Assembly: GCA_963971425.1 (NCBI GenBank)
Contig: OZ020525.1
Location: 11,972,187 to 12,036,186 of the forward strand
Length of the DNA stretch: 64,000 nucleotides
Reading direction: 5' to 3'
Origin: Bryoerythrophyllum caledonicum
Taxonomy: Eukaryota > Streptophyta > Bryopsida > Pottiales > Pottiaceae
Positions within the stretch are counted from its first letter, which is position 1. Each line of letters begins with the position of its first letter. This document shows positions 3,239 through 33,055 of the stretch, in pieces. The notes under the pieces are model-generated. The model worked only from the letters and a program-made list of their open reading frames with translations, made no database searches and was not told the origin of the DNA. The position numbers and the translations under genes were made by a program.

Positions 3239-3610
3239 TAGCAGAAGATTCAAGCTAAGGTTTGGGTCGGGCTTGTGGACTACGGCAGGAATGCGTGGAA
3301 CAAAACGCTCAACCTCTGCAATCAAGCCCCCAAGAAGAGTGAGCTCTTTACTAACCGCTTCAAGAGTCAGTGGTGCTGTAATGAGGTCCTTGCCTTCTGG
3401 GTTGACAAAAGACCGAGTTGGAGACTCTCCTCTCGCCACTGCACTAACTATAGCAATAGTAGTAGTAGTGTTAGGCAACTGACCCTCTCTAACCTCTAAC
3501 CTGGCCCGGGCTCCGGCCCGGCCTCGCCGGCCCTGGCGGGGACCTGCCTTGTTCTCTTTCCTTCCTTTGCAGTAAAGATCTCTTTACTTGTGTCAAAAAA
3601 AAAAAAAAAA
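3239..3610 (+). mobile_element. 5'-truncated LINE, 3' end with poly(A)
   Basis: This is the terminal 0.37 kb of a LINE on the plus strand. Its reading frame (GLVDYGRNAWNKTLN, then WCCNEVL) matches the end of the longer minus-strand LINE (GLVDYGRATWSKSLL, then WCCNES). The 3' tail TTTGCAGTAAAG..CTTTACTTGTGTC ends in about 16 A. Direct repeats AAAACTATT flank it (about 3230-3238 and 3607-3615), as expected for target-primed reverse transcription. Severe 5' truncation is typical of L1-type copies. Confidence 0.8.
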
Positions 3611-3718
3611 CTATTAATCAACCAGGTCACAAATTATAGGTGAATGGATCATGTCACCTGTAACCTATCAGGTAACTATATAAGATCAGGTGAATCAAAT
3701 GAACCAGTTGTATCAGTA

Positions 3719-4000
3719 TGTTCGGCTACTTCGATTCGAATGTCTGACTTTCACTATTCGAGTAGAAAACAAGTGCCTCTGAGAGTCTGAAGCACTGTAG
3801 CCTTCATTTCGCATGGAATCTTATTATGGAGAGGTGCTTCAGCATTCAGTGAACTTTCTTACTGTTACCGTGGTGATACTTGGGTAGTACCCATGTGGTA
3901 CCATGAGCTGGAGGATAAGATCGTACTCTGCCACGTCGGCTGGGCTTGGCGGAGCTGAATTCAAGTCAACCTTACAAAAGTCAATAGAGTTCTTCTGAAA
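3719..4000 (+). repeat. Dispersed repeat, paralogue of the MULE insertion site
   Basis: The stretch from TTCGGCTACTTCGATTCGAA to AGGTGCTTCAGCATTC and on to about 4000 aligns with two separated pieces: 19247-19326 and 32696-33050, which are the immediate flanks of the large MULE. Here the two halves are contiguous. It is therefore a diverged uninterrupted copy of the repeat into which the MULE inserted. No coding function is seen. Confidence 0.65.
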
Positions 4001-16068: not shown

Positions 16069-18507
16069 AGTCTCAAGCCCCGCATCTTGAAGTTGTTAGG
16101 ATTGTTGAATCAATTTAGCAAGTTCATGCACTCAAGAATGTGTCTCTTTCTAGTGGTGCAAAGAATTGTTCCAATGAATGTTTTGGTATTGTTGATAATA
16201 GGGTTTGTATATATTTTTATGCCTATCCTTGATTTGTGAGTATAAAAAAGATGCATATTCTCAAGTAATATATTTGAAAAAATAAATTATTGGTACCATT
16301 GGATTAAACATGTCCAATATGGTATGATCCAAAAATAAAAGTGTAATTCATGTGTAGTTTATAATAATCCACTTCAATAAATGATTTGAAAATATAAATC
16401 TCCAAAAATTGGGGTCCTAGCATACAAATATTTAAGATAAAATTGAGTAAATGATTAGGAAGGCGGTACAAATTAAAACTCAAGCATGATGACATCAAAA
16501 AAGAAATAGCCAATATTATTGTTCAACCAATAGACATTTATGCATAAGATTGGACCTCGTGTCTAATCTCACTATTTTAGAAGATGCTTTATAAAATCAT
16601 TGATGCAAATATGACAAGCTGGAAATTAGTAATAAACAATATAAACCATATTTGATCATAATGAAGATTATACATGCATTTTGCTTCAAATTATGATATT
16701 TTTATTTTTTAGTTTTGTTGAATTCCGTAGTTTGAGTTTAAAATCATGGCACGGTTCCATTTAACAATGGTATTATTTGCAGTTATATCAACATCACTTA
16801 GATTCAATGTGGATATTGTTTTAATGGGTTTGATAATTGTGACACCTCAAGCTTAAGAATTCCATCAGGTGTATATAATGTATTTGTGAAAATCTTGAAG
16901 ACATTCTAACATATTGTGGTAATTAAATAAGAACTTAGATTCTTTTTTCAATTGTATAATTCATTTGTTTTAATTAACCTACCCTTACTAGTACAAAACA
17001 TATGCTTCTGCAGTGTAAATATATTTAAAAGTGAATATTCAGTACCAAAATGTTTGTATCATCTCCACGAAACAATGGCTCAATGATGAAACCACAAAGT
17101 TTGCATAGTTCCTATTGATCCATTGTATAAAATAATTTGTAAATAGGAATCATTCAATAATGGTGGAATGGTTTTCCTAGGTTCCTAGGAATCATTTGAT
17201 AATGAATGGATTTCTATATACTCCTATTGTGTTGGGATGGCTTTATGAAAATTGTGTAAATATGGATATTAGTATATGTGTTTATCAAGTTATAGGTATC
17301 CTACGGTTAATATGCATCTTGAAGGGCAACCAAAAACTTGAGGTAGAAAATTCTCTAATACCAATTTATAATTATACATTACTATACAAAATGTTGCAAA
17401 GATGAAATTGTAGAACATGCGCTGTTCCTTTTGATCGACTTAAACAATGCAAATAGATATATTAAGTGAAAATTGTAGTTTATGCACTTTTAAAAACGTA
17501 AGGTAGTAATCCTATACATTTAATTTCAAAGGGCCACCGGCCACATAGTTTACAAATGTGTCTTATTTTCATTGTCATAGTTATATATAATGTATCCAAT
17601 CTAAAAATATGCTCGAAAATCTTATTAATATGTTTGTTTACTAATTTTACTTCAATTGAAGAAATAACATCGTCATGCAAAATTTAATTTCCAATTTATT
17701 ACAACTAGGATTTGAACCAAAAATCCTATGGCATATTCAAAGTCTCAATCCTAAACCATGGTTTTCCTAAATCTTAACCCTAAACTCTAACCCTAACCTA
17801 TAAACCAAACCCTGGATATAAATATGGATATATGTCTGCTAATCCTCAATCCAATTTTTCCTGCCTAATTTCAAAGATGGCATTTGGCGCATATCCACTT
17901 TTTGGACTCTTTCCAAAATTCTTGTTTTAGCCACTACTTTGGACTAGGCTAATAGCCGTTCCTGCCCAAGCGGTCATAGGCACTACAATGGCTTCAATAG
18001 AGGTGATGGAGTTGATTCTTTCTTTCTCTCTTCACTGAGTTAGGTCTACGTGTGTTGCTTTGGCGATAACTACACAAAGTTGAAGAGGATTTGTGTACAA
18101 AGATGATGTAGGCGGCTGCACGGTATTGAAGAGGATGTGTGCGTAAAGTTCATGTGGGCGGCTACGCAACGTTTCATTGAACGCTTCCAGAAGGTTGAGT
18201 AGCTAAATTCAAGGGCACTCAAGGTTACCATCATTTCAAGTCAGCGAGGTATGGTTTAGGATTTAGAGAATCCTTACAATTACTCTCTATTTGAGGGCTT
18301 CAACATTTTGATTTAATCTCTACATTCATATATTCAGGTGAGGGTCTTCTTCCATTTCAATTATTTCTTGTTCTTGCCCTATGGTGTGTCAATGTGAATG
18401 TCTCATGTAGAGGAACTTGTTAGAGAGGAGTGATACCATTGCTTTTGAAGTGCTCGGTATATGACATGCCGATATTTGCGGAATGGTTAACAAGATCAGC
18501 AACAGAC
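16069..18507. other. Gene-free AT-rich stretch
   Basis: No coding region, RNA gene or clear repeat structure is supported. Short CCCTAA-like words occur near 17770-17810. Confidence 0.6.
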
Positions 18508-18720
18508 AGTTTAGGTCGAGTCGAACTAAACTGTTAGCCCTTATTCCGGCTACAATTTAAGTCGAGTCAACCTAAACTATCAGCCCCAATTCCAAGTACA
18601 ATTTAGCTCAAATCATCCTAAACTGTCACCCCCAATTCCAGGTACATTTTAGCTCAAATCGACCTAAACTGTCAGCCCTAATAATTCCAAGTACAGTTTA
18701 GCTCGAATCGATCTAAACCA
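18508..18720 (+). repeat. Tandem repeat, about 55 bp unit, 4 copies
   Basis: Four degenerate units each contain TTTAG-TCGA-TCGA-CTAAAC followed by TGTCAGCCCCAATTCCA. The core resembles the palindrome TTAGGTCGACTCGACCTAA of the foldback element at 54985-55388 and the motif in the element at 52041-52220. Confidence 0.75.
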
Positions 18721-18812
18721 TATACCTCAATTTCGGAGCTTCAAACAAGGTCTGTCTATACTAGTGTGTCTCCAAGTGTCTTCAAGGCAAGACTTATATA
18801 TATGAACTGTGC

Positions 18813-19326: not shown

Positions 19327-19335
19327 CGCACAATA

Positions 19336-20108
19336 CCCGGTCACTACAGTCAATCCGGGTTCGCGGTGTTAGGGCCCGGTTTTAGGCCTCACACCGCGAA
19401 GAGCGGCCCTTCTCCCCAAGTGCCTTTTCGCCTCCAAGCGCCCTTCTTTGCACGATAACGTCCACTTTCGCCCACAATTTTTTCGCGCTGCCCGTATCCC
19501 TTATCGGCATTCTCGCCAATAGCCCCTTCTCCCCCCGCCTTCTTCGGATCACCGAAAGCCCCTTCTCGCCCAGCCACGTGTACTCCAGAATGACCCGTCC
19601 TTCTCAGCGGCTGCCGGCGCGAAGTGTCATCCACATCGTTTGTGTTTGGCGCGGTCTTTCGCACGATCTATTGTGCCGTATAGTACTCTGCCGGAAGGGG
19701 AGTGCTTGTCTCCGCGTGAATGGAGTTCCTCGATCTCAATCTCCCCATACAGGACATGCCGAATGGGAATTCTGGCGAGACGGCGCCACCAACCATTGCC
19801 AATAACGGGGAAGCAGGGAGGAATTGGAGGCGTCAAGGGAGAAAGAAATCGGCTGGCGTGCGTGAGAAGGGGGTGGAGGACCTTGATGCCGCATTCCGGG
19901 AAGGCCCGCATATAGACTACCTGAAGAAACACGGTGACAAGGTTCTTTGGATGCGCGATTCATTACAGAACCGTCCTCCTGGAATTTTGACATGGAAATG
20001 TTTTAGGTGGAACATGGAGGCCGAGAATGATACGAGGATCGTAGAGGATTCGCAACCAGCGAAGAGAAAGCAGTCCAAGCTTATCGCCTACATTCCCTGG
20101 GAAAGGAT
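19336..20108 (+). repeat. MULE left terminal inverted repeat
   Basis: It matches the reverse complement of 32024-32686 with few differences over most of its length. A stretch of about 100 bp (about 19952-20055) is absent from the right repeat. The arm covers the start of the plus-strand ORF at 19720. Confidence 0.9.
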
Positions 20109-20262
20109 CTTGGATTTCGTAGAGGGTGAGCAGTCTGGCCGAAAGGATGTAGAAACTACCTTCGTCCGCGACAAGAATGAACCCACAAACGTTGGCGAGA
20201 AGACGCACTATCGGTGGAACTGCCACATCGAGTACCAGTGGTACGTGAATCTCGACCTCTAA
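19720..20262 (+). CDS. MULE-encoded N-terminal ORF or first exon with LDLNLP motif
   Basis: This is an open frame of 180 codons beginning MEFLDLNLPIQDMPN, mostly inside the left inverted repeat. LDLNLP is an LxLxL (EAR-type) word that in plant transcription factors recruits co-repressors; that role is not demonstrated here. The rest is basic and polar (GRNWRRQGRKKSAGVREKG). The right inverted repeat encodes the same start on the minus strand. It may be a separate small protein or the first exon of the transposase gene whose main body starts near 21.1 kb. I know no family for it. Confidence 0.5.
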   Translation: MEFLDLNLPIQDMPNGNSGETAPPTIANNGEAGRNWRRQGRKKSAGVREKGVEDLDAAFREGPHIDYLKKHGDKVLWMRDSLQNRPPGILTWKCFRWNMEAENDTRIVEDSQPAKRKQSKLIAYIPWERILDFVEGEQSGRKDVETTFVRDKNEPTNVGEKTHYRWNCHIEYQWYVNLDL

Positions 20263-21123
20263 TATCACAATATGCACGGTAGATCTGCTTATCGGTTGTG
20301 CCGTAATATCTCTTCAGTACTACACGTATCTCTAATGGTCATAGCCGATAAGCAGATGGGTAGAAGCACACTAAGGTGGGTGCACTTTCGGACAACCTAT
20401 TGTACCAAAAAAGTGGTAAAAGTCAACCCTTCTTTGGGATCCAATTTGCCTTGTGTACATTGAGTATAAACAAGAATATTTTTAGCATTCCTAAAGCGTG
20501 GCAGGTGGTGTGACACGCGCGGCTTTAGGAGCCTCAAAAATTGCGCCAATTGTAGTTTTTGGAGGCGTTTAAGAGGTTTAATTTGTACTATATTTGTACC
20601 TTTGCAGGAGTGGAAGGTGTTTCAGTTTCCCACCTTTTACTCATATTACTTGAAAATCAGTTTGCTACCCACATGGGGATCCCCTTAAAAGGACTAGTTA
20701 CTGGAAAAAAAACGAAGTTTGGATCATTTTTGAGTATATTTTGCCCAAAAATAATTTTAGCACTTTGACCGTAAAAATCACAATGAGCGACTAAAAATTA
20801 TCACAACTTTTAATGTGCATTTGAAGGCTTTAAACATGTTCTTCCATTATCTAAGTGTGAATTTGTACTATCTTATGTCAAACAACATGATATTCGTACT
20901 TTTGTTTTTTTTATCCAGACTGTGACTTACTTTCTGAAAGTTAAAAAAGTACATATATTTATGTGTTCCCAATGTTTTTTGGAGTAAAGCACAATAGTTT
21001 TATAATATTCATTAGTATTTCCAACATCGTTGCCAAAAACATTAGTACTTTTGCATTGGGAGCACTACTAATCCGGCCATTGAAATTTGGGACCCCCTGA
21101 AAAAACTGCTCGTGACGTACTAA
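20263..21123 (+). other. Non-coding interior of the MULE
   Basis: AT-rich sequence between the N-terminal ORF and the transposase body, without convincing coding capacity. It may be an intron or an intergenic spacer of the element. TTATCG/CGATAA words lie at 20289 and 20346. Confidence 0.5.
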
Positions 21124-23534
21124 GTGCTCCACCCTAACTTGCTTCCACCCAGATGGCGTTGTCAATACGGTCCCGAAGACAAAATGGACAAGATCCAAGC
21201 AATCACGCCCGAAATGACACCAACGCCATCGAAATACAATCACAAAGGGAAACAACTTACTTCCGGCGCTGGCCAAAAAGGCCCTCGTGCCACCGATGCG
21301 AAGGAGGGGGGGTCTATGAAAGTGGGCTGCCAATGTCGATTCTACGTAAAGAGGTACTATTTTCTCCCATATATTGCCGAGATAGGGTACTTTTGCTCGT
21401 AACATGTCGACACACAGGGCCTCATCGTCGACGATAAGGACAATGTGCAGAGGAGAAAGCTCCGCTTTTGGAAGTACATGTCGGAGGAAGTAAGGCTTTG
21501 GGTTCTCAGGCAATTTGAGGAGCAAGTTTCGATGGCAGCTATAATACAGAAGCACGAGAAGCTGGTACTGAAGGCGCGCGATGAGGGCACTCTTATGCCT
21601 TCTCGGGATTGTTTCCTTAGTATGGAGGACATCCGCAACATATGCGGAGTCCGTGCGCAGGAACTATACAAGAAACACGACAATGACATTTAGACTGTGA
21701 GAATGTGGGTAAGAGAAAACCGAGGTACGGTTTTTTACTACCAAGACCCGGGCAACAAGGTTGACGGAGTACTGAATGCCGGTAACGTACCCTTCGTAAT
21801 TGGGATTCAAACCCCATTTCAGACGCACATGATGCTAAAATACAGTCACAAAAACATTATTGCTATAGACGGGACATTCGCAACGAACAACAAAAAGGTA
21901 CACATACCTATACCGTGGTCCATGTAGGGTCCATCTAGAAATTAGGAGCATTCACTCCCATACCGCTTAATTTCTTGCTTGCGTGTCCAGTTTCCGCTCT
22001 TCACAATGATGGTATTCGACAAGTGGAGAAACGGGGTTCCAGTGGCTTTCGTGATCACTACGAAATCCAAACAAACAAATCTTATGCCTTGGATGCACGC
22101 TCTGAAGTAGAAGTTGGTGCAGATAAGGCCGGACTGGAGACCCACTGCCTTTGTACTTGACGACGCCGATAATGAGATCAACTCTCTTCGGTAAGCGATT
22201 TAGCATTCTTACATAATCGGGTGACGGGCCTTCGGCGAGTTGTACTTATCGGCTTGTCGGGTTATCGCAGGGAGGTTTGGCCGCACTCGCATCTATTTCT
22301 ATGTCTCTGGCATGTTCGTCGAGCGTGGCAGAAGAATGCATGTGCTAAGTTGAAAGACATGGAGAAGAGGGCCGGAGCCTTGCAAATTGTGGGCTCACTT
22401 ATGTACGTATCAGAGACACCAAGTGACTTCCAAAACCCTTTGACGAGAGCTCCCGGCGATAAGGTGTGGAATTTGGTAGAGTGAGTGCAGCATGTCTACG
22501 GCGAAGCTAAGGCTCTCTTGCCAACCGCTGATGCATACTGGAAGTACTTCGACAAGGAATGGCTCCCGAAAATCAAAATGTGGGTTGTGGGAGACCGGAA
22601 AATCCCCCATGCTGGGCAGGACACCACTGCAGCAATCGAATCATACCATTCTAACATGAAAGCAGTGCTCCGGCAATCCAAAAGGAAGCTTATCGGCCAA
22701 AGGATGGACTGGCTTATTTATGAGCTCACTGGAAATGTCATCGAGAAGTATGATTACAGTCACTGGTGTAAGCTGAACCGTTTTATAAAGAACAAGAGGC
22801 AGCGGCAGATCATGGTCAATGCAATCAACCAAACAAATACAATTCCCGATAATGTGGTTACCTTGCCCGAGTGGTCGGGAGGTCCTGCATATGTTAAATC
22901 CTCGAATAGGAGACACCTTACATATGCGGTATACAATCCATGCACCGAATGGGCCGTCTGCCAATGTGTTAATTCCCAGAAAGGTAACATCTGTAAGCAC
23001 CAGGTTAAGGTCCTGAAAATGACAAGACCTGACCTGGCGGAGGGAAAAATTGCGAGATATCTAGGCTCTCTTCGTGGCACAATCCAAGGTGGAATGACGA
23101 ATCTGCTCCGCCAACACAATGGTCGACACCCGAATACCGAGGGCTTCCCCGATAATGATGTCCCCTCCGATACCGAAACCGGAGATGTGATCCTAGTGGC
23201 TACCAACCATCGAGAATTAGGCGAGACATGGGTATGCAACTTTGATCGTATGCATCAGTTTGTCCTGAAGCTACTCGACAAGGCTTATCGGCAACCGTTG
23301 TTGGCAAGGCACTTGGATGCAGCATTGCGCAACACCGACGCCACCCTCTCAAGGTTGGAGGCTGAAATCAAAGACGGAATGCTTCATCCACTCCAGAAGA
23401 TAGCTGCACCGCTCTCCACAAATGAAGACGGTCTTGGAATGAGGCTTCGAAGATTGCATGACTTCCTGGATTCGAGAGGTTTTCGGGTGAGGTCTATTCC
23501 AACTAGCGAAAGACTAACTCAAGAAACGACTTAG
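21124..23534 (+). pseudogene. MULE transposase with SWIM zinc finger
   Basis: A frame from about 21445 (LRFWKYMSEEVRLWVLRQF) leads to the first catalytic Asp in NIIAIDGTFATNNKK (about 21870). After a break come MVFDKWRNGVPVAFVI (about 22006), LDDADNEINSLR with the second Asp (about 22158), a probable intron ending at about 22270, CLWHVRRAW (about 22308), and a 349-codon block from 22485. That block contains the SWIM finger CQCVNSQKGNICKH (about 22966). These are the standard landmarks of MULE transposases, which cut and rejoin DNA by a DDE mechanism. In-frame stops at about 21403 (TAA), 21691 (TAG) and 22482 (TGA) and a frame break near 21927 make it inactive. It is otherwise nearly complete, so decay is recent or slow. 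Confidence 0.88.
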
Positions 23535-23976
23535 GTTATCGCTCCGATGTGGTTGAGTATAAAGGGCAGCGGAATTTAGCTGGTTATCTGCGCCGATAAC
23601 CATAAGTAATCTCCTGAAGGAATACTACCGATAAGATCCTCTTAGATTAAGTTCCATGCATCTCATGAAATTTCTAGTGAAGTGATATTTCTTTAGTTAT
23701 GAAGTTAAAACTCGACATTCAATATAATCGGCAAAGACAAGATTTTAAGTTCCGCTTACAGGCCTCAAGTGGGTCTCAAATTCCGTTTGTGTGCGCTATC
23801 GAAAAATTTGTCATTTACAATGAATGAAATGTACAACATCGGCATCCTATTAATATGTACAAATTCCTGGAGTCTATCGGTTGTGTACAACACCCCCCCC
23901 CCCTTATCGCCTACTTCTTCGTCTTGGTGGTGCCCTTCGATTTTTTCGATTTATTCGCCCCTTCTTGCAAAGTTGC

Positions 23977-25676
23977 CTACTTCAGCCTTCCTCGAGTCAC
24001 TGATGGGTTTGTGAGCACGTTGAAGCCCTGAAGTTCACGTTTCCCCACTATCTCCGAAATTCTGGGAACTGGGACTTCCTTCTTCTTCGCCGTCCCTGTA
24101 CCCGCTTCCACGAAAACAACGTCCGGACTTTCGCTTCCGACCTCCACCATATCCTGTCCACATAGATTGAGAGCATCGTGGAACGGAAGCGGTGCGACAA
24201 TCTCCGTGTATAGCGCTTGCATGAACCATCGGTACGCCTTCTTCCCGTCCCAGTCCAAATATTGTGTCCCCATTGTCACCGTCTTCTCCTCCGCCTCTAA
24301 ACGTGCGATAAGGTACTGCCAGAAGCCCAAGCATGCCATGAAACCACACTCCCACCTTTCTTTCTGATTAGGCAGTGGCAACCTTATCGGCTCTCGACTC
24401 TACCATTCTGGCCAACTTTTGGATCCGACCTTCACGCCCTTCGCGTTTGCCCATCCCATGTGCACAAGGAATAGAAAGTTGTTTACTTCCCGACCCTTGT
24501 GCATACCTTTCGCTGGGTCCAGGTGATATGTTTGCCTTTGCTCCAGGACGAAAACGCTCCAGTGACCCTTATCGTGGTAAGGGACGATAAGGATATTCGG
24601 CGACTCGGTGGTGGTACGAAACGAGCGGCTGAGAAAGCCCACAATGTCATCCCAGTCCTTTTCTTCATCCGCCAGATAGCATTGCAACGTCGCCGATAAC
24701 TAGTTGTGCGTGTGATGATACTGAATTCGAACATGCTCATTCGCACGGTAGTAGACATGCCTAAGGAGGAAATCCTGAAATGTGCCTTCCATTTCCCGCT
24801 TGTCCTTTAGCACGCAATGCCAATCTTGTAGTGCAAGCGAGACATCCACGGCTTGCCGAAGGTCTGGACCGAAAAACCTCATACCTCCAGTTAAGTCCTT
24901 TGGTGAATAAAACGAGGCCTGCAATTCAGAAGAAAGGGGATGTTAGACAACAGGTGCCGATAAACAACAGGTGTCGGAGAACACTATAACATAGACGACA
25001 GATTTCATCTGAGTTTTAGGACCTCCATAATAATACCGAGGTTCTTCTCTATCGTGGATGCGTCATGCTACTCAGCTTCGTAACAGAGCGAGGGCTCTTT
25101 CTCCCAAGACACACAGTCTGACATACATACTCCGCGATTCTCCGCCAACATGCACGTATACGCCGCCTTTTGTCCTTCCCTTCCGTTCTGAATACGCTCT
25201 TCGAGTCCAGGATAAACCCAAATACTGGTCAATTGCAATTCCTGTGCATTCTTGATAAAGCGCAATGCCAGTCTAATCTCCTCGGGGTCCATCTCCTTTG
25301 GTGCAGGGGTGTCGGGCTCTAGCGGAAGAGCAGGGTTATCGGCCTCTAGCGGATGAGCATGGTTATCGGGCTCTGGCGGAGGAGCATGGTTATCAGGCTC
25401 TGAAATCAGAGCAGGGCTATCAGGATCTGGCGGAGGAGCAGGCTTAACGGGTTCTGGCGGAGGAGCATGGTTATGGGGCTCTGGCGGGCTAGCAAGGTTA
25501 TCGGGCTCTAGCGGAGAAGCGTAATCAGACTCCGAAGAGGGAGGATTCTCGGGGATTGGATGAGTTTCCAAGGGTGCCACGCAAAGCTCCTCGGGAACAA
25601 CCGGGGAACTGTTAGTAGAGTCCAGGTTTTCAATACCTTGACTCGACAGAGGGAACGATAGACGTTGGGGTTTCAT
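23977..25676 (-). pseudogene. Ulp1-like C48 cysteine protease of the MULE
   Basis: On the minus strand the C-terminal part shows the Ulp1/SENP triad landmarks: His in DKGHWSVFVLEQRQTYHLDP (about 24560), Asp in HLDP, and Gln..Cys in PNQKERWECGFMACLGFW (about 24370). This order (H, D, Q, C) is that of SUMO-type proteases. An upstream exon (24924-24700) precedes it. The N-terminal ORF at 25676-25068 is a 202-codon acidic, Pro-rich segment with repeats of EPDNHAPPPEPD. Exon borders are not certain and the gene may continue upstream beyond the nested LTR into the ORF at 28357-31580. The exact role of such proteases in MULEs is unknown. Confidence 0.75.
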
Positions 25677-25778
25677 GCTACGTTCCGTCTCCCCCGTACC
25701 CCCAAGTACAATATGATGACGAGGGGTCTCGAATTGAGATGGCCCTACCGGCCACTATGAAGACTCCGCAATGCCGAG

Positions 25779-28438
25779 TGTGAGCCCCAAAACCGGCTCA
25801 CGATGTCATTTGGGCATTAAGATTAACTAGTTAGCATTAGGAAGTGGTAGATAGGGTGAGATGGTTAGACTAAACCACCCATTGTGGTTAAAGGGCTTGA
25901 AAAGGCCTTTTACTTGCCATTTCCTAATTTAGAGGGAGGTCATCATCCCCAATTGGGGATTTAATCTTGTTAAAAAATTAAAAAATTAAAAAAATTAAAT
26001 AAAAAAAAACTTAGAAGACGAAAGGAATTCTTGCAAAAAGGGAGACACCTCAACCTCCATGTGTTTTTAACACAATGGGAGGAAGCCTTGGGAAAAAACA
26101 ATACAAAAAACGAAAGAGGTAAGTTGACAAATAAGTAATTAAATAAACAAAAAAAACAAAAGTAAACAAAACTCGGAATGCAACCATGATGTGGCCACTC
26201 TTGTAGTTAATCTTTTAAAAACCATGCACGAAGTAGTGGCACATGGCCTTGGAAGAAATTAGAAAAGTTTAGATGGTGACGAGGGGAGAAATTAACACCA
26301 ATTATTGGCAATCATGGGCTGCCCTTAGTGGCATGCCTGAAGTTACTTTAAAAAACCTTTTTTATTTTTTGTTTTCTTCCTTCCCCGGAGCTGGAGAGGG
26401 GGAATTTTGGATTTTCTTGGGGAATATTCCCCGGAATCTGCTGAAGAAACGTTGGACTTCCAGCGTGAGTTACGTGTGCGGCTGCCGTTGGAGCTGGAGG
26501 GCGTTGGGTTGACTGCGGACAGGGAGTTGTTTTCGGTCTCTCGTTTTTTTGGGTCGAGGGGGTCTCGCGTCTGGAGAGGGGAATGGCGGAAGAGTCACAA
26601 CGTGAGTTCTAGGGAGACCAACAAAGGGGAAGAGCCCCACCTGTGAGAGTGTGTGCGAAGCAGGGTTTTGAGAGTGCAACAAGTTCGTAAGTGTGGGCTA
26701 GAGGCGGCGTCGACATTGGAGTGGCGGTCGAGTGAATGCAGATCGGCGGCAGTGACTGGAGAGTTCGGCGACGGACGGAGCGGCGAGCTACTTGCAGCAA
26801 GCAGGAGACGCTTGGGGAGTTCCGGTGTAGAGTGTGAAGGAAGCCGTGACTCTAAGCAGAAGAGCGGAGAGCAGGTCGGCATGAGATTTACGAGCAGCGT
26901 GTGTGCACAGGGAAGAATCGTTGGTGGAAGGTTGCTTGTTCTAGGATTCGGAGGGCTGGAGCAGGCGTTTGCGAGTCGGTAGGGTGCGACGAAGAAAGGA
27001 AGGGACTGGAGTTGAGGATCCGGAGCGGTGTGTTGGTGTTGGAAGGCTGTTGCGAGGAAGGGCGGTGAGTTTTTTCCGTTTTTTTTTTTGTCGACGGTGG
27101 CGGAGGTGACGTTGCTGGGAGCACGGTGGAGTGGTGTTGGTGCCTGGGCGAGGGGGTGCAGCAGTACCGGTGGTGAGAAGGGAGTTGCGGTGCCCAACAG
27201 GGAGCGGAAGTGCCATTGTTCTTGTTGTTATTTCAGGGTGCTCGAGTGGTTGCTTGGAGTCATGAGGGCGCAAGGTCTGTGTAGGAGAGAGATACAAGGA
27301 TCCTGTGTGTGTTGGAGAGCTGTGGAGGAAGTGAGGTCGGAGCTACGACGATAGCGGCTCGATCGGGCTCGTGTGAGGTGCGACGTCTGCGAGCGGGGTG
27401 GAAGAACGAGCGCACAATGCCGAGAGGGCCTGAGGAGATGCTGCGCCGTGATTCTGATCACGATTCCGGCCTGCACTTCTTCCCGATTTAGGTTTCTCGA
27501 TGAGGGTCCAGGGAAGAGCGTACGGAGGGAATCGGGGCATTCGTGGTTGTCCAACGGAAGAGGAAGCTCTAGGGCAGCCAGAGACGAGGAGCACTGGAGC
27601 AGCGAGGAGCAGGGAGTCTCCTTCTTCGTTTCTGTTTTCTACCCTGTGCTCTCGGTTATCTCAATCTTCTTCCCCTCTTCCTTGTATGAAAGCTGATTGT
27701 TCTTGTTTGTAGAAGACTCCTGGTTGCGTTAGTTGCCTAATTTCCCTCGTGTTAAAACTAGCGCGGAAGCACTGCTCAAATGACAGAAAATAGGTTATTA
27801 AACTAAGGCATGAATTGCCAATCAATTGTCAATCGTCCACACTAGAAGCTGGTTCTTGCATGGTGGAATGAATTGTGGTGGAATGTGGATGGAATTGTCA
27901 TAGTTGCGTAATTGTTGTGGAAATCACTGCTGGTCGCCTTGGTTGGGGTCAATACATATGTCCAATTGAAGTTTTGAATTGCTCATCAAGTTGGTCATAA
28001 GAACCTAGTAACAATAGGCTAAAAAAAATTGGAATTTGGACAATTACCCTAGAAATTTTTGAGCTTTGAGTTCAACAAAGTTGAGCAAATTTCTGTGAAG
28101 GAACTCAAAGTTAAATGTAAAAGTTAAAAGTTAACAGTAGAAGTAAAAGTACAGTTAAAAGTAAAAAGGGAAGAAAAGAAAAGAAAAGAATAAAATAAAA
28201 TAAAATAAAATAGAGGAAGATGCAAGTAGGAAGACGTGAAGGACATTAAGAGGTGTTAATTAAGTTAACTATTGGCTTAATCAAGGCAGAATACAATAAT
28301 TCGTTAGATTGAAGATACTTAAGCCACTATCACCTTGCAATTGTGTGTGCATGAGCTTATCTTGCAATGTTACATGAATGAAGTAGGGCTATGCTCACAA
28401 TAGACCCTCCCACTAGGGGGTTGTTTATTTGGTTCACA
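25779..28438. mobile_element. LTR-type insertion (probable solo LTR) inside the MULE
   Basis: This 2660 bp fossil has termini TGTGAGCCCC and GGTTCACA (TG...CA, short inverted TGTGA/TCACA). It is flanked by an exact 5-bp duplication, CCGAG, at 25774-25778 and 28439-28443. No gag, protease or polymerase similarity is seen inside and no second LTR is recognised, so a long solo LTR is the simplest reading. The interior has a GC-rich centre (26.4-27.7 kb) and AT-rich ends. It interrupts the minus-strand gene region of the MULE and lacks the TTATCG words that fill the MULE, so it is younger. The exact 5-bp duplication suggests moderate to recent age. Confidence 0.75.
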
Positions 28439-31400
28439 CCGAGGGTAGGGTCGTTCATTGCTTGTGTCCAAGAAAACTCCATGTCAGCTAGGTTATCGGC
28501 GGGATTCACCGGTGACTTCACCGCTGTAGTAGCGGGCTCTTCCTTGGGCAATTCGGGAACACCTCCCTGAGGTATTTCAACGTTCGCCGCCTCTTGTGCT
28601 AGGTCCGTAACTTCATCCAACGATTTATCGGAGAATCCTTCGTCGTCATTATTCCTCGGGTACTGATTCTGGACGCGGAATTCATTTGAAGTTCCCTCGT
28701 CCATGTGAAGAAGGGCATCTGCACCCTCCAGGTCCCTTGTTTGGATAGATGTCTCCCGCCGAATTTTGTCATGAGAAGTCACTAGATGCCCTTCTCGTCG
28801 ATCCCACTCTGTCGTCACCAGACGCGATACAACGTTCTTGCAATTTGCCTCTGCAAGTTCCCTTTCGCGTGCCCATGTAGGATCTACAGTGCCTGCAAAA
28901 GGCTTATCGTTTAGTCACACGGAAATAACGGAGATACCAAGAATGAGGAAGAAATCAGTTAGATGAATGACTGGGTTATCGGATAAATCTTACGCGGAAC
29001 AAAGCCGGCATACATGAAGTCCAGATCCTCCCTCGCCAAGTGGTTCTCGTCTAGGGTATCCCAGTGTTCGTAGGTACCCTTATCGACAGCACACCACTAT
29101 CGAACAAAATCCTCTTGGTGACTCCTTGCCGTGTCCACGACAGTGGGAGCATGGACCATTGCGTTGAAGCGTAACACCGAATCTCCCCCGCCGTGCTTAT
29201 TGTCGCGGAGCCGCAAGAACGCCTGCGATATCGGGAGGTACTGTTTCGATGCGTCCCTTCCGAAGAGGAAGGAACTCAGGACTTCGTACATTTGAGACGG
29301 CCCATTTCAATTTGTCTCTGGAGCGTCCACGTACATTGCAATGTTGGCAAGCCAGGGGATTACGCTAGGATTGCACATATTCCGCCTCCTGAAAAACAAC
29401 GGAGTCACGTCAGCCAATAAGGGACGATAAGAGACAATAAGGGACGATAAGAGACAATAAGGGACGAGAAGAGACGATAAGGGACGATAAGAGACGATAA
29501 GAGACGATAAGGGACGAGAAGAGACGATAAGGGACAAGTCTACACGGCAAGAAGCGAAAACTTCCACCGGAGAGAGCCCGTTGCAAACGAAGTAACACTT
29601 CAACAGCATAGTTGGAGCCGGCGACGGGACACTCTCGATTCTAATCCGCGCTAGATGGTGCACGACCTCTCGAGCCTTGCCAATGTTGTGCGTCCATGGC
29701 AGTGGGTGCAGCAATGGTCGAAGAATATCGTTCATGGCGCAATACCCGAAGAGGTTGTTGAAGTTCCATCGAATAGCCTCTCTCTCCACCGCCCTTTCGG
29801 CATCAAATTTACGAATCTCGACCTCGACTAGCTTCTCCCTTAACCGCTTTGTGCTCTCCACATCGGCTGTCATCCTAGCTACATACTCGACGCACTCCTT
29901 CTCGTGCGTAATGTATGCCGACGTTCCTGCAACTGCCTCTTTCCAAACCTCTTGCGCAGTACCGCCATCAGGATTCTTTGCCAGATTGCTAAGAATTGTC
30001 AGCAGTGGAAGCGAAACCTCGTTATCGGCGAAGCCAACCCCTTCGAAAATGCAGGCACCGAGAGCCTGGTCGAACTTGCCCTGGTGGCCTCCAGACTCCA
30101 CCATACACAAGACGTATTTCAACAGCTCATCTTCGGACTTTAAACTGTCCATCGTGATATTGTCGAGCAGACCATGCTTGAGGAGTAGGTACAACAGCGT
30201 TATCGGTACCTTCCTTTCGGGGGAGAGCACCCTCTGAAGCGGGAAAATGTGCTCAGCGTCCTCCTACGCCTTCCGTATCATTTCGGCCCTCTCCAACTCC
30301 AAACCTTCCCCCCTGCTACCTTTGACCTGCAGAATGAGCCGCTTATCGGGATTCGCACCTTCATCGGAGCCTGCCCGAAGTATCGTGGCCATTGTCAACG
30401 GCTGTCGAAATTCCATCTGGGCCGAGGTCGGGAGGCATTCGCCCGAGGTTATCGGCAGGCCAATGTCAGAGTCGGAGGGTCTCTCCGCAATACTGGTCTC
30501 TCCCAACCGGTGTAAAGCCGGCGGGGCTCGAGGCCTTCTCGCCATACCGGTCTCTTCCACAGACATTCCCGTAAGCCTTATCGCCACTGCTGGGGGATTG
30601 AGAGCTTTTGTCTTCTTCGTGGACTCTTTAAATCTTGCCTTCTTCGTGGCCTCTTCAGCTTTTGCCACCTTCTTCTTTGGTAAAGCCTCCTTCGCAAACT
30701 CGGTCTTCCTGAGCACGATGGAGGAATCGCTCTTGAGCGCCGGGGCGAGTGCGGGCTTCTGGACCCTGGATATCGGGTTCTCGGCACCGGAATTCCTGGA
30801 GGCATCATCTCTGGACCGAAGACCGTCCTTCTCGCCGAAAACAGCTAGAGTGCCTACGTTATTGGCCTCATAATCAGTGTTGTGATCTCCTCCCGACTCT
30901 GCCGACGAAGAAGTATCGTTACTGGACTTCGCTTTCGAGGGAGGAGGTCTTTTTCGTGAAGGCATAGCGGTACGCTTCTATGGACGGCCCTCCTCTGCCG
31001 CGTGTGCCACCCTCTTGCCGCGCTTAATTGGGACTGGACTGATCGAATCCTCCTCATTATCGGTAGCCTTCCGAGGCCTCCTCTTCGTGGCTATCGGCTC
31101 TATGGTGGCGAAAACCTCAATGGCTTCTTCCACCGACCCGCAATCCCGAAGTCGTGCCACAAAGTTTGCCACATCCCTGACTCCCAAACTGAGATACGAC
31201 GGCATCTTCACACCCACCTTCCCCTTCCCTTCGCATAATGCATGGTTGCGGTAGAGGTTGAACCTATGCTTCTGGTGCGTCGTGTTGCAATGCATGCACA
31301 AAATCTGCTTGGGGCCGGTTTGTCCAGCCGGTACGATGGGCGAGTCCGGAAGATGCAGTTCCTGGATAAGGGTCCTCGCCTCCATCACCTCTCAGCTATC

Positions 31401-31580
31401 GCGCCAAATGTGGTCCTTCTCAATGACAAATAGCTGCTCGATCCTCCCCGTTTCCTCGTTGTAGGTGGGCGGAATCCCTTTCTTATTCTCCACCGGGATC
31501 TCATCAAATAGTGCCTTGCAGAAACACCCCGGCCGCTGCGGCATTTTTACGGTCCTACGAGGGAGGACATTGCGGAACAT
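28357..31580 (-). pseudogene. Long minus-strand ORF of the MULE, function unknown
   Basis: Five open pieces between 31580 and 29097 lie in one frame, separated only by in-frame stops at about 31392 (TGA), 30978 (TAG), 30264 (TAG) and 29307 (TGA); a further TAG lies at 29097. In order they contain a possible zinc finger (ILCMHCNTTHQKHRF..NHALC, about 31290), a basic serine-rich segment with repeated KK/KKTK (30965-30500), and a helical region (KSEDELLKYVLCMVESGG, about 30130). A further exon-like piece at 28818-28357 is acidic. No family is recognised. It may be the N-terminal part of the C48 protease gene or a separate element gene. All five stops can arise by single transitions. Confidence 0.55.
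29405..29538 (-). repeat. Tandem array of a GGGACGATAA/GAGACGATAA unit
   Basis: About a dozen 10-bp units, alternating GGGACGATAA with GAGACGATAA, GAGACAATAA or GGGACGAGAA, are repeated head to tail. On the minus strand this reads as a repeated LIVSYRPLSS-like peptide that is probably not functional. Seven units carry the CGATAA word enriched across the element. Confidence 0.85.
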
Positions 31581-31996
31581 GAAACCTTATCGCTTGAAAC
31601 GATTATCCGGAACCTTAAAACCGTGAAACCCTAAACCTGGACGCTTTGCAAAATTTCCTACATCTTCACACAGCTTACTTTCCAACGCCCCACATTTGAA
31701 ATGGAATGAAAGAAGGACAGGGAATAAACCGAAAAGAAATGGAAAGAAAGAATGACAGAGAACTTACGGAAATGGAATGAAATAGAAAGAAAGAAGGGCA
31801 GGGAACTTATCGAAAAGTTCAGTCGGCAATTTCAAGGTTTTGAAGCAGCGATCGCTAAAACAGAGCTTGGACTTCCTGGATATGTCGCTAGACGGCAAAA
31901 AATACAGTTCAAATGTTTGGGAAATGGTGCCGCCACAGAAAAATTTTCCATGACTGTATTAGGATTTCACGTTGATGGTGATGATGAACACCTAAC

Positions 31997-32311
31997 CTAC
32001 CCTAAACCGAGTAGCCGCCTCATTCTATCCCTGAGAATGTAGGCGATAAGGTTGGATTGCTTCCTCTTCGAATCGGGCATCCGAAGAACCCTCCAAGCGT
32101 GTTTCTTCAGGTAGTCTACATGCGGGCCAACCCTAAACACGGCATCAAGGTCCTCCACCCCCTTCTCATGCGCGCCAGCCGGTTTCTTTCTCCCTTGACC
32201 CCTCCATTTCCTCCCTGCTTCCCCGTTATCAATAACGGTTGGTGGCGTCGTCTCGTTAGAATTCCCATCAGACCTGTCTTGTACGGGGAGATTAAGAGCG
32301 AGGAACTCCAT
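31997..32311 (-). CDS. Mirror copy of the MULE first ORF in the right inverted repeat
   Basis: This is an open frame of 104 codons beginning MEFLALNLPVQDRSDGN, the minus-strand counterpart of the ORF at 19720 because both lie in the inverted repeats. It shares KKPAGAHEKGVEDLDAVFR with the left copy's KKSAGVREKGVEDLDAAFR. The LxLxL word is kept (LALNL). It would supply a first exon and promoter to the convergent minus-strand gene(s) of the element. Whether it is spliced to the frames at 31580 and beyond is not visible with certainty. Confidence 0.5.
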   Translation of the reverse strand: MEFLALNLPVQDRSDGNSNETTPPTVIDNGEAGRKWRGQGRKKPAGAHEKGVEDLDAVFRVGPHVDYLKKHAWRVLRMPDSKRKQSNLIAYILRDRMRRLLGLG

Positions 32312-32686
32312 TCACGTGCAGACAAGCACTCCCCTTCCGTTTCGTACTACAGGGCACAATGATCGTGCCAAAGACGGCGCCATACGAAACGATGTGGATG
32401 GCACTTTGCAGCCGCCGAGAAGGACGGGTCATTCTGGAGTACACGTGGCGGGGCGAGAAGGGGCTTTCGGTGATCCGAAGAAGGCGGGGGGAGAAGGGGC
32501 TATCGGCGAGAATGTTGATAAGGGATACGGGCAGCGCGAAAAAAATGTGGGCGAAAGTGGACGTTATCGTGGTAAGAAGGGCGCATGGAGGCGAAAAGGT
32601 GCTTAGGGAGAAGGGCCGCTCTTCGCGGTGTCAGGCCTAAAATCGGGTCCTGACACCGCGAACCCGGATTGACTGTAGTGACCGGG
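32024..32686 (-). repeat. MULE right terminal inverted repeat
   Basis: Reverse complement of the left arm, starting CCCGGTCACTACAGTCAATC when read from the right end. It lacks about 100 bp present in the left arm. Confidence 0.9.
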
Positions 32687-32695
32687 CGCACAATA

Positions 32696-33055
32696 CCCTT
32701 CTTTTCGCAAGGAGTTTATTTTGGAAGGTGTGCTTCAGCATCCGCTGACTTTTGTGATTGACATTGTGATGATACTTGGGTGATACTTGGGTGATATTTG
32801 GGTGATACTTGGGTGATATTTGGGTGATACTTGGGTGATATTTGGGTGATATTTGGATGATAGTTGGGTGATATTTGGATGATAGTTGGGTGATATTTGG
32901 GTGATACTTGGGTGATACGTGATTTATACCAGGGCGGGTGTCGTGAGCTGCACGATAAGATCCTACTGTGCACTTGGCGGAGATTGGCCCAAGTCAACAG
33001 GGCTGACCTTCCAAAGGTTAATATTGAGATGATTCCGGGTTCACTGAGCACCATT
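32696..33055 (+). repeat. Right half of the MULE-interrupted repeat, with 11-bp minisatellite
   Basis: CCTTCTTTTCGCAAGG..GTGCTTCAGCATCCGC matches 3803-3860, and the match resumes after the minisatellite (GAGCTGCACGATAAGATCCT versus GAGCTGGAGGATAAGATCGT) to about 33050. Inside, 32769-32923 is an array of about 14 units of GGTGATAYTTG that is represented by only about one unit at 3.87 kb. Confidence 0.7.

Follow-up and report, generated by a model that had tools for sequence, protein, structure and literature searches.

Why should a single six-letter word recur along the whole length of a transposable element? The question is raised by 64,000 nucleotides of the Bryoerythrophyllum caledonicum genome (contig OZ020525.1, positions 11,972,187 to 12,036,186; hereafter the window), in which a Mutator-like element (MULE) is filled with the word TTATCG or its complement CGATAA. 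The explanation that we favor is that the element encodes a protein which recognizes this word and which would work in the manner of VANC anti-silencing; on the sequence comparisons presented here, we give this explanation roughly even credence. In VANDAL elements, short words are bound by VANC proteins, methylation is lost over the element as a result, and related families differ in the words they use (PMC5735166, PMC10398659); VANC diverges faster than VANA (PMC5735166).

TTATCG is dense within the element and sparse elsewhere

The element, its words and the repeats that bear on their number lie as follows.

19336-32686, strand not applicable: Mutator-like element holding the words, bounded by inverted arms and a target duplication
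19453-32569, strand not applicable: 49 words TTATCG/CGATAA spread along the element, the first at 19453 and the last at 32564
19336-19614, plus strand: left terminal inverted repeat (TIR), two words (19453, 19501)
32408-32686, minus strand: right TIR, one word (32564)
25303-25520, plus strand: 27-bp minisatellite in an open frame, three words
25779-28438, strand not applicable: nested insert of 2.66 kb resembling a solo long terminal repeat (LTR), TG...CA, with a CCGAG duplication and no words
29417-29535, minus strand: 10-bp tandem array, seven words in a single orientation

We filed the element as a MULE because it is flanked by a perfect 9-bp target duplication, CGCACAATA (read directly at 19327-19335 and 32687-32695), and ends in long inverted arms (279 nt, 94% identical). 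Under an order-1 Markov model, through which dinucleotide content was controlled, its 10,471 b without the nested insert are expected to hold 4.67 words, as compared with the 49 found (z 20.5). TTATCG is the top-ranked of all 6-mers in the element, and those that come next (TATCGG, CTTATC) overlap it. A first-pass annotation of the window had counted 48 words by eye against a random expectation of about five, with 26 extending to TTATCGG/CCGATAA, 41 remaining without the tandem cluster at 29.4 kb, and about ten elsewhere in the window; direct counting bore these figures out, with 25, 42 and 12 for the last three. Its statements that both orientations are used (28 plus and 21 minus by direct count), that both inverted repeats contain words and that the nested LTR contains none were likewise correct.

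This density is not shared by the genome at large, where 437.36 Mb searched on both strands contained 96,361 copies of TTATCG (0.22 per kb, about 21 times less dense than the element) and the reversed form was commoner (167,248). Immediately outside the copies of the element the word is sparse as well: 28 outer flanks of 1.5 kb each, from 28 of 30 terminal loci with the window's own ends (L005 and L009) set aside, held 5 words in 42 kb, or 0.12 per kb. A short word that is dense in the family and sparse elsewhere is thus found here as it is in VANC/VANDAL systems. The family is large: the transposase query gave 116 scored matches among 823 candidates, 87-93% identical with the window itself apart, and the inverted-end query gave 414 candidate places, of which 40 were scored. 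Related copies carry similar numbers of words, with 51 in L065 and 47 in L066 (both full length) and 50 in L067, whose fetched stretch ends before the right end of the element; the window copy has its 49 in 9,904 b once inserts are removed.

The extended form SSTTATCGKC occurs 5,015 times genome-wide, as compared with 2,729 for its reversal. Among the first 100 places listed, all on contig C1, 57 fell into 7 clusters that span 58 kb of 9.56 Mb, whereas random placement gave a mean of 0.3 and at most 8 in the same test; listed transposase matches were present in 4 of the 7 clusters. The comparison with other MULEs consisted of one 4-kb piece (L070, one of 138 PF10551 matches), which held 3 TATCG and 0 TTATCG, a zero that says little alone because genome density would give about one in 4 kb. 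Of 10 simulations of word spacing, 9 revealed no significant regularity; the exception was TTATCG in L067 (0.018).

A sister family carries a relaxed form of the word

A word-palindrome query with 70 genome places led to a sister family, represented by L068 and L069, which are 99% identical to each other (the L068 stretch, like that of L067, stops short of the right end). Its transposase is 68-72% identical to that of the listed window-family copies. Dozens of its transposase matches are 96-99% identical and most are stop-free, which suggests that the family was recently active. The top 5-mer of the sister family is TATCG (90 against 31.1 expected in 9,642 b), and its word is NTATCG, in which the first base of TTATCG is relaxed. 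Related families with different words, as in VANC/VANDAL, are therefore present in one genome. The palindrome itself, mostly CCGATAACGCGGTGGCGTTATCGG, lies directly behind the transposase frame (L068 3947-3968).

Sites in the window copy have a common anatomy. Of the 49 words, 43 have C or G (S) at -1 and 40 have one of these at -2; the next base after the word is G or T (K) in 38, and the base after that is C in 29, giving SS-TTATCG-KC. In a scan of one-mismatch forms the third base was the most tolerant (TTCTCG, 20 against 7.1; TTTTCG, 18 against 7.6). The sister copy L068 had a freer first base, with CTATCG at 24 against 6.3, ATATCG at 23 against 6.8 and GTATCG at 12 against 5.6; there TTCTCG was raised (23 against 7.4) but TTTTCG was not (5 against 4.7). 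Such a spectrum of variants resembles what a DNA-binding protein would tolerate in its site.

TCTCG/TTCTCG is a second enriched word in both families (window copy, L067 and L068), and TCTCG also stands second among the 5-mers of L067 and L069 when these are ranked against codon shuffles (tied at z 3.5 in L067). It probably represents a variant that this site tolerates.

A host DNA-binding factor might instead bind the word, the element having gathered sites for open or insulated chromatin. Known host factors, for example of the GATA, I-box MYB or BED-finger type, bind short words with GATAA or CGATA, BEAF-32 is reportedly associated with CGATA, and the TATCG core is common to both families. 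However, sites of the GATA type call for A or T ahead of GATA, where here there is C, and the word is rarer across the genome than its reversal. Moreover, the two sister families in this one genome differ in the limits of their words, TTATCG only in one and NTATCG in the other, a difference that is hard to square with one host factor common to both and that favors a reader encoded by the element. We regard a host factor as unlikely.

The excess in coding DNA exceeds codon choice

The reading frames of the window copy are broken, and shuffles that keep the protein and its codon usage were run on L067, L068 and L069. The strict coding set comprised 5,196 b of L067 and 5,904 b of L069 and omits a probable coding stretch (L067:5932-7290), while the wider sets of open reading frames (ORFs) of L067 and L068 take in some probable intron. 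In strict coding DNA, TTATCG was found 19 times in L067 against 5.51 expected and 12 times in L069 against 4.01, numbers reached in 0 of 1000 shuffles in either case. VTATCG was in excess in L069 (31 against 12.40; 0 of 1000 shuffles) but not in L067 (8 against 6.57; 325 of 1000), which limits the VTATCG excess to the sister family. TATCG ranked first of 510 5-mers in L067 and first of 508 in L069, and two of three control words showed no excess in L067 and L068. These shuffles rule out codon bias as the cause of the excess in the three copies, in agreement with the first-pass annotation.

That annotation had also placed the words in coding and noncoding parts alike. Both parts do contain them, but the density is higher outside the listed ORFs: L067 has 19 words in 1,543 b outside (array included) and 31 in 7,399 b of ORFs, and L068 has 11 in 2,017 b outside and 20 in 7,623 b of ORFs. 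Strict coding DNA holds 19 of the 50 words of L067.

The cluster at 29.4 kb is a 10-bp array that is also present, with differing numbers of words, in L066 and L067. In L067 it sits in a GT-AG-looking intron, and an intronic position is probable for the cluster. The corresponding place in L068 has dispersed TATCG words instead of an array. Across the genome, the word pair spaced by 10 bp occurs 675 times, as compared with 38 for its reversal.

Sites turn over while density is kept

L067 and L068 were compared in colinear alignments only (offset under 1200). Within 5,382 aligned 6-mers, 11% of them conserved, 5 words were shared, 23 were private to L067 and 11 to L068. Because few words are shared and many are private in alignable DNA, the density of the word appears to be kept while individual sites are replaced. 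For the core TATCG, 12 sites were shared, of 40 and 44 (0.286), as compared with 0.135 for 16 matched 5-mers pooled, a pool that includes TATCG and falls to 0.099 without it.

Four copies with identities near 90% provided 549 comparisons, and in 406 of these the word was intact. With controls overlapping words and comparisons containing gaps omitted, word sites were intact in 74.0% of cases (n=73) and CG-ended control 6-mers in 57.6% (n=1,459), a difference reached in 0 of 10,000 permutations; for isolated word sites the values were 75.5% (n=49) and, for local controls, 57.1% (n=983), with 1 of 10,000. Thirty close copies were also aligned (the window and 29 others, the best of 116 scored matches and hence close to the window; columns at least 70% occupied), and in these the CG of 22 words was kept in 94.6% as compared with 90.9% for 216 other CG (p 0.0098).

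Could the words simply be the legacy of an ancestor that was rich in them by chance, or have spread by slippage or gene conversion, with inheritance and mutation doing the rest? All copies are of common descent and part of the excess does reside in two minisatellites, but most of the 49 words lie outside repeats, with 7 in the 10-bp array and 3 in the 27-bp repeat, and their positions differ between sister families at high density. In addition, the words resist change better than matched 6-mers, the coding excess goes beyond codon choice and the tolerance depends on position within the site. Inheritance alone is, in our judgment, very unlikely. A further alternative is that CG sites in general were lost to methylation-driven decay, from which those following TTAT were spared. 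Loss of the word does run chiefly through TTATCA (27) and TTATTG (22) among 143 altered comparisons. However, the better preservation of the word extends to its non-CG part (84.5% as compared with 71.6%), and the absolute count, about ten times expectation, in effect rules this CpG context out; we consider it extremely improbable.

Candidate readers encoded by the element

The coding features of the window copy are as follows.

19720-20262, plus strand: first ORF piece of the transposase gene (MEFLDLN...), with similar ORFs in L068 and L067
20360-21149, strand not applicable: insertion of 790 bp without words, absent from L065, L066 and L067
21150-23534, plus strand: body of the transposase gene (catalytic region and putative SWIM-type finger), from ORFs and from weak MULE/ZSWIM matches on sister copy L068
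23977-24699, minus strand: Ulp1-like protease, interrupted in the window copy, from a weak domain match and triad residues seen by eye
30981-31391, minus strand: zinc-finger-like segment CxxC...HR.NL..NHA.C of a minus-strand protein, in a 137-aa frame

None of 10 window ORFs scanned matched a MULE transposase domain. In the sister copy, L068:2152-2490 gave weak matches to PF10551 (E 0.0063) and PF21056 (E 0.0027), both below the curated cut-off; the finger of this protein, recognized by eye, we take to be of SWIM type. The Ulp1-like frame matches Peptidase_C48 weakly (E 0.15 in the window, 0.077 in a related copy), and the same is true of SENP2 (1tgz; E 0.77, and 0.063 from the related copy). 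When related copies are aligned, the D, Q and C columns coincide, with H in L069 and L066 and Q in L067; the putative Ulp1 residues, too, were recognized by eye. The zinc-finger-like protein keeps its CxxC...HR.NL..NHA.C segment and has an open frame of 725 aa in L069. Its ORF is only 31% identical between families, as compared with 68-72% for the transposase, and we conclude from this that it changes fast. On these features it is the best candidate binder, with the transposase second.

A word bound by the transposase could also serve transposition itself, like the subterminal transposase-binding repeats of Ac or En/Spm, in which a short word is present in many copies near the ends. The transposase appears to have a SWIM-type finger and is the better conserved protein, both terminal repeats contain words, and in L068 the left-end 500-b bin, with 7 TATCG, is among the highest and about equal to the interior peaks. 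In the window copy, however, the terminal 500-b bins hold 2 and 1 words, as compared with up to 7 in interior bins, and the left-end bin of L067 holds 2. The words of Ac and En/Spm cluster near the ends, whereas here the word fills the element, and it is not obvious how sites halfway along an element of 10 kb would help end synapsis. The word profile of the window copy thus opposes end-binding repeats, and a role in transposition itself seems to us quite unlikely.

The first-pass annotation had proposed a word bound by the transposase or by a host factor. Its notion of a binding word stands as the best reading, given the tolerance, the flank preferences, the turnover and the conservation of the sites, whereas the host factor is opposed by the differing word limits of the sister families and the SWIM-type transposase is no better a candidate than the zinc-finger-like protein.

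Comparison with VANC/VANDAL systems

If the word is a recognition site of an element-encoded DNA-binding protein, the element would have built up sites over its length, in introns, in gaps and, by synonymous codon choice, in genes. The protein would then find and coat few sequences other than copies of its own family, and its likely job, by analogy with VANC, would be to protect those copies from silencing or to release them from it. Much in this picture has its counterpart in VANC/VANDAL21 and VANDAL6 of Arabidopsis, which are likewise MULEs rich in a short word that is scarce outside them (PMC5735166, PMC10398659), with different words in related families, arrays of the word in noncoding DNA including introns, and an additional protein that evolves fast in comparison with the transposase. 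VANC genes with a Ulp1 domain are also described, and KIU (VANC with Ulp1) and the Ulp1-bearing MULEs of melon, rice and grapevine resemble the present element in carrying an Ulp1-like protease (PMC13317346). The Ulp1 domain of KIU, though, belongs to a VANC gene of non-TIR MULEs, whereas here the TIRs are long, no VANC domain was found in the ORFs scanned and the Ulp1 match is weak.

Several observations weigh against an element-encoded reader of the VANC kind. The words described for VANC are mainly noncoding and form single-orientation arrays (VANC21 sites), whereas here they occur also in coding DNA and in both orientations, though one such array exists. No DUF1985, DUF287 or named DNA-binding domain was found above cut-off in ORF sets of 10, 10, 8, 3 and 7 (some overlapping), a search of the PDB gave no solved structural relative of the zinc-finger-like segment, and Pfam, NCBIfam and PDB searches provided no name for the protein. 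By codon shuffle, TTATCG took second place among the 1,753 6-mers of L067 but seventh among the 1,803 of L069, and a control word, TATTCG, was itself in excess in L067 (7 against 2.5; 5 of 500 shuffles) but not in L068. Tolerance is not exclusive to the third base, CTATCG (9 against 4.0) and TTATTG (8 against 4.2) being mildly raised in the window copy. The L067-L068 alignment is in parts only 53-59% identical, and some private sites may be misaligned. Finally, whether the word is conserved better than its surroundings, a check that the first-pass annotation had proposed, received a divided answer: it is when set against CG-ended 6-mers, but TTATCG comes no higher than 8th when 36 frequent 6-mers are ranked by conservation, and in the 30 close copies the TTAT columns are kept no better than other A/T columns (98.3% and 98.4%).

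We did not file the element as a member of VANC/VANDAL, because the ORFs scanned showed no VANC domain and the word also occurs outside noncoding arrays of a single orientation. We class it as a MULE with what may be a new form of self-recognition by word, one that would work like VANC/VANDAL. We put forward tentatively the more specific proposal of a self-address outside VANC, in which a lineage of MULEs that has TIRs and an Ulp1-like gene would carry its word in genes and gaps alike, a new zinc-finger-like protein would read it, and protein and word would be changing together between sister families of one genome. A literature search of titles and the beginnings of abstracts found no such word-filled case outside VANDAL. 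Sequence-specific anti-silencing has already been described for VANDAL elements; a second lineage, with a word that shapes codon choice, would mean that transposons can carry a self-address over their whole length. With two sister families and different words in one genome, word and reader could be swapped for a direct test, and a self-address system of this kind might yield a sequence-specific tool for epigenome editing.

Other repeats in and around the element

The 790-bp insertion at 20360-21149 falls early in the transposase gene and has, by eye, imperfect inverted ends (CACTAAGGTGGG / CCACCCTAACTTG). In the control locus L070, a 149-bp tandem repeat with CCATCGC occupies 3454-4000, near another MULE of the same genome; CATCGC, which occurs 10 times in L070, was rejected as that locus's own word, 6 of the 10 being inside the repeat. 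To the left of the window element, at 18496-18732, a 50-nt repeat is present five times with a spacing of 46-49 b and an inverted AGTTTAG...CTAAACT motif. Just outside the right target duplication, at 32726-32956, lies an 11-bp minisatellite of the TGATACTTGGG type with 15 register copies.
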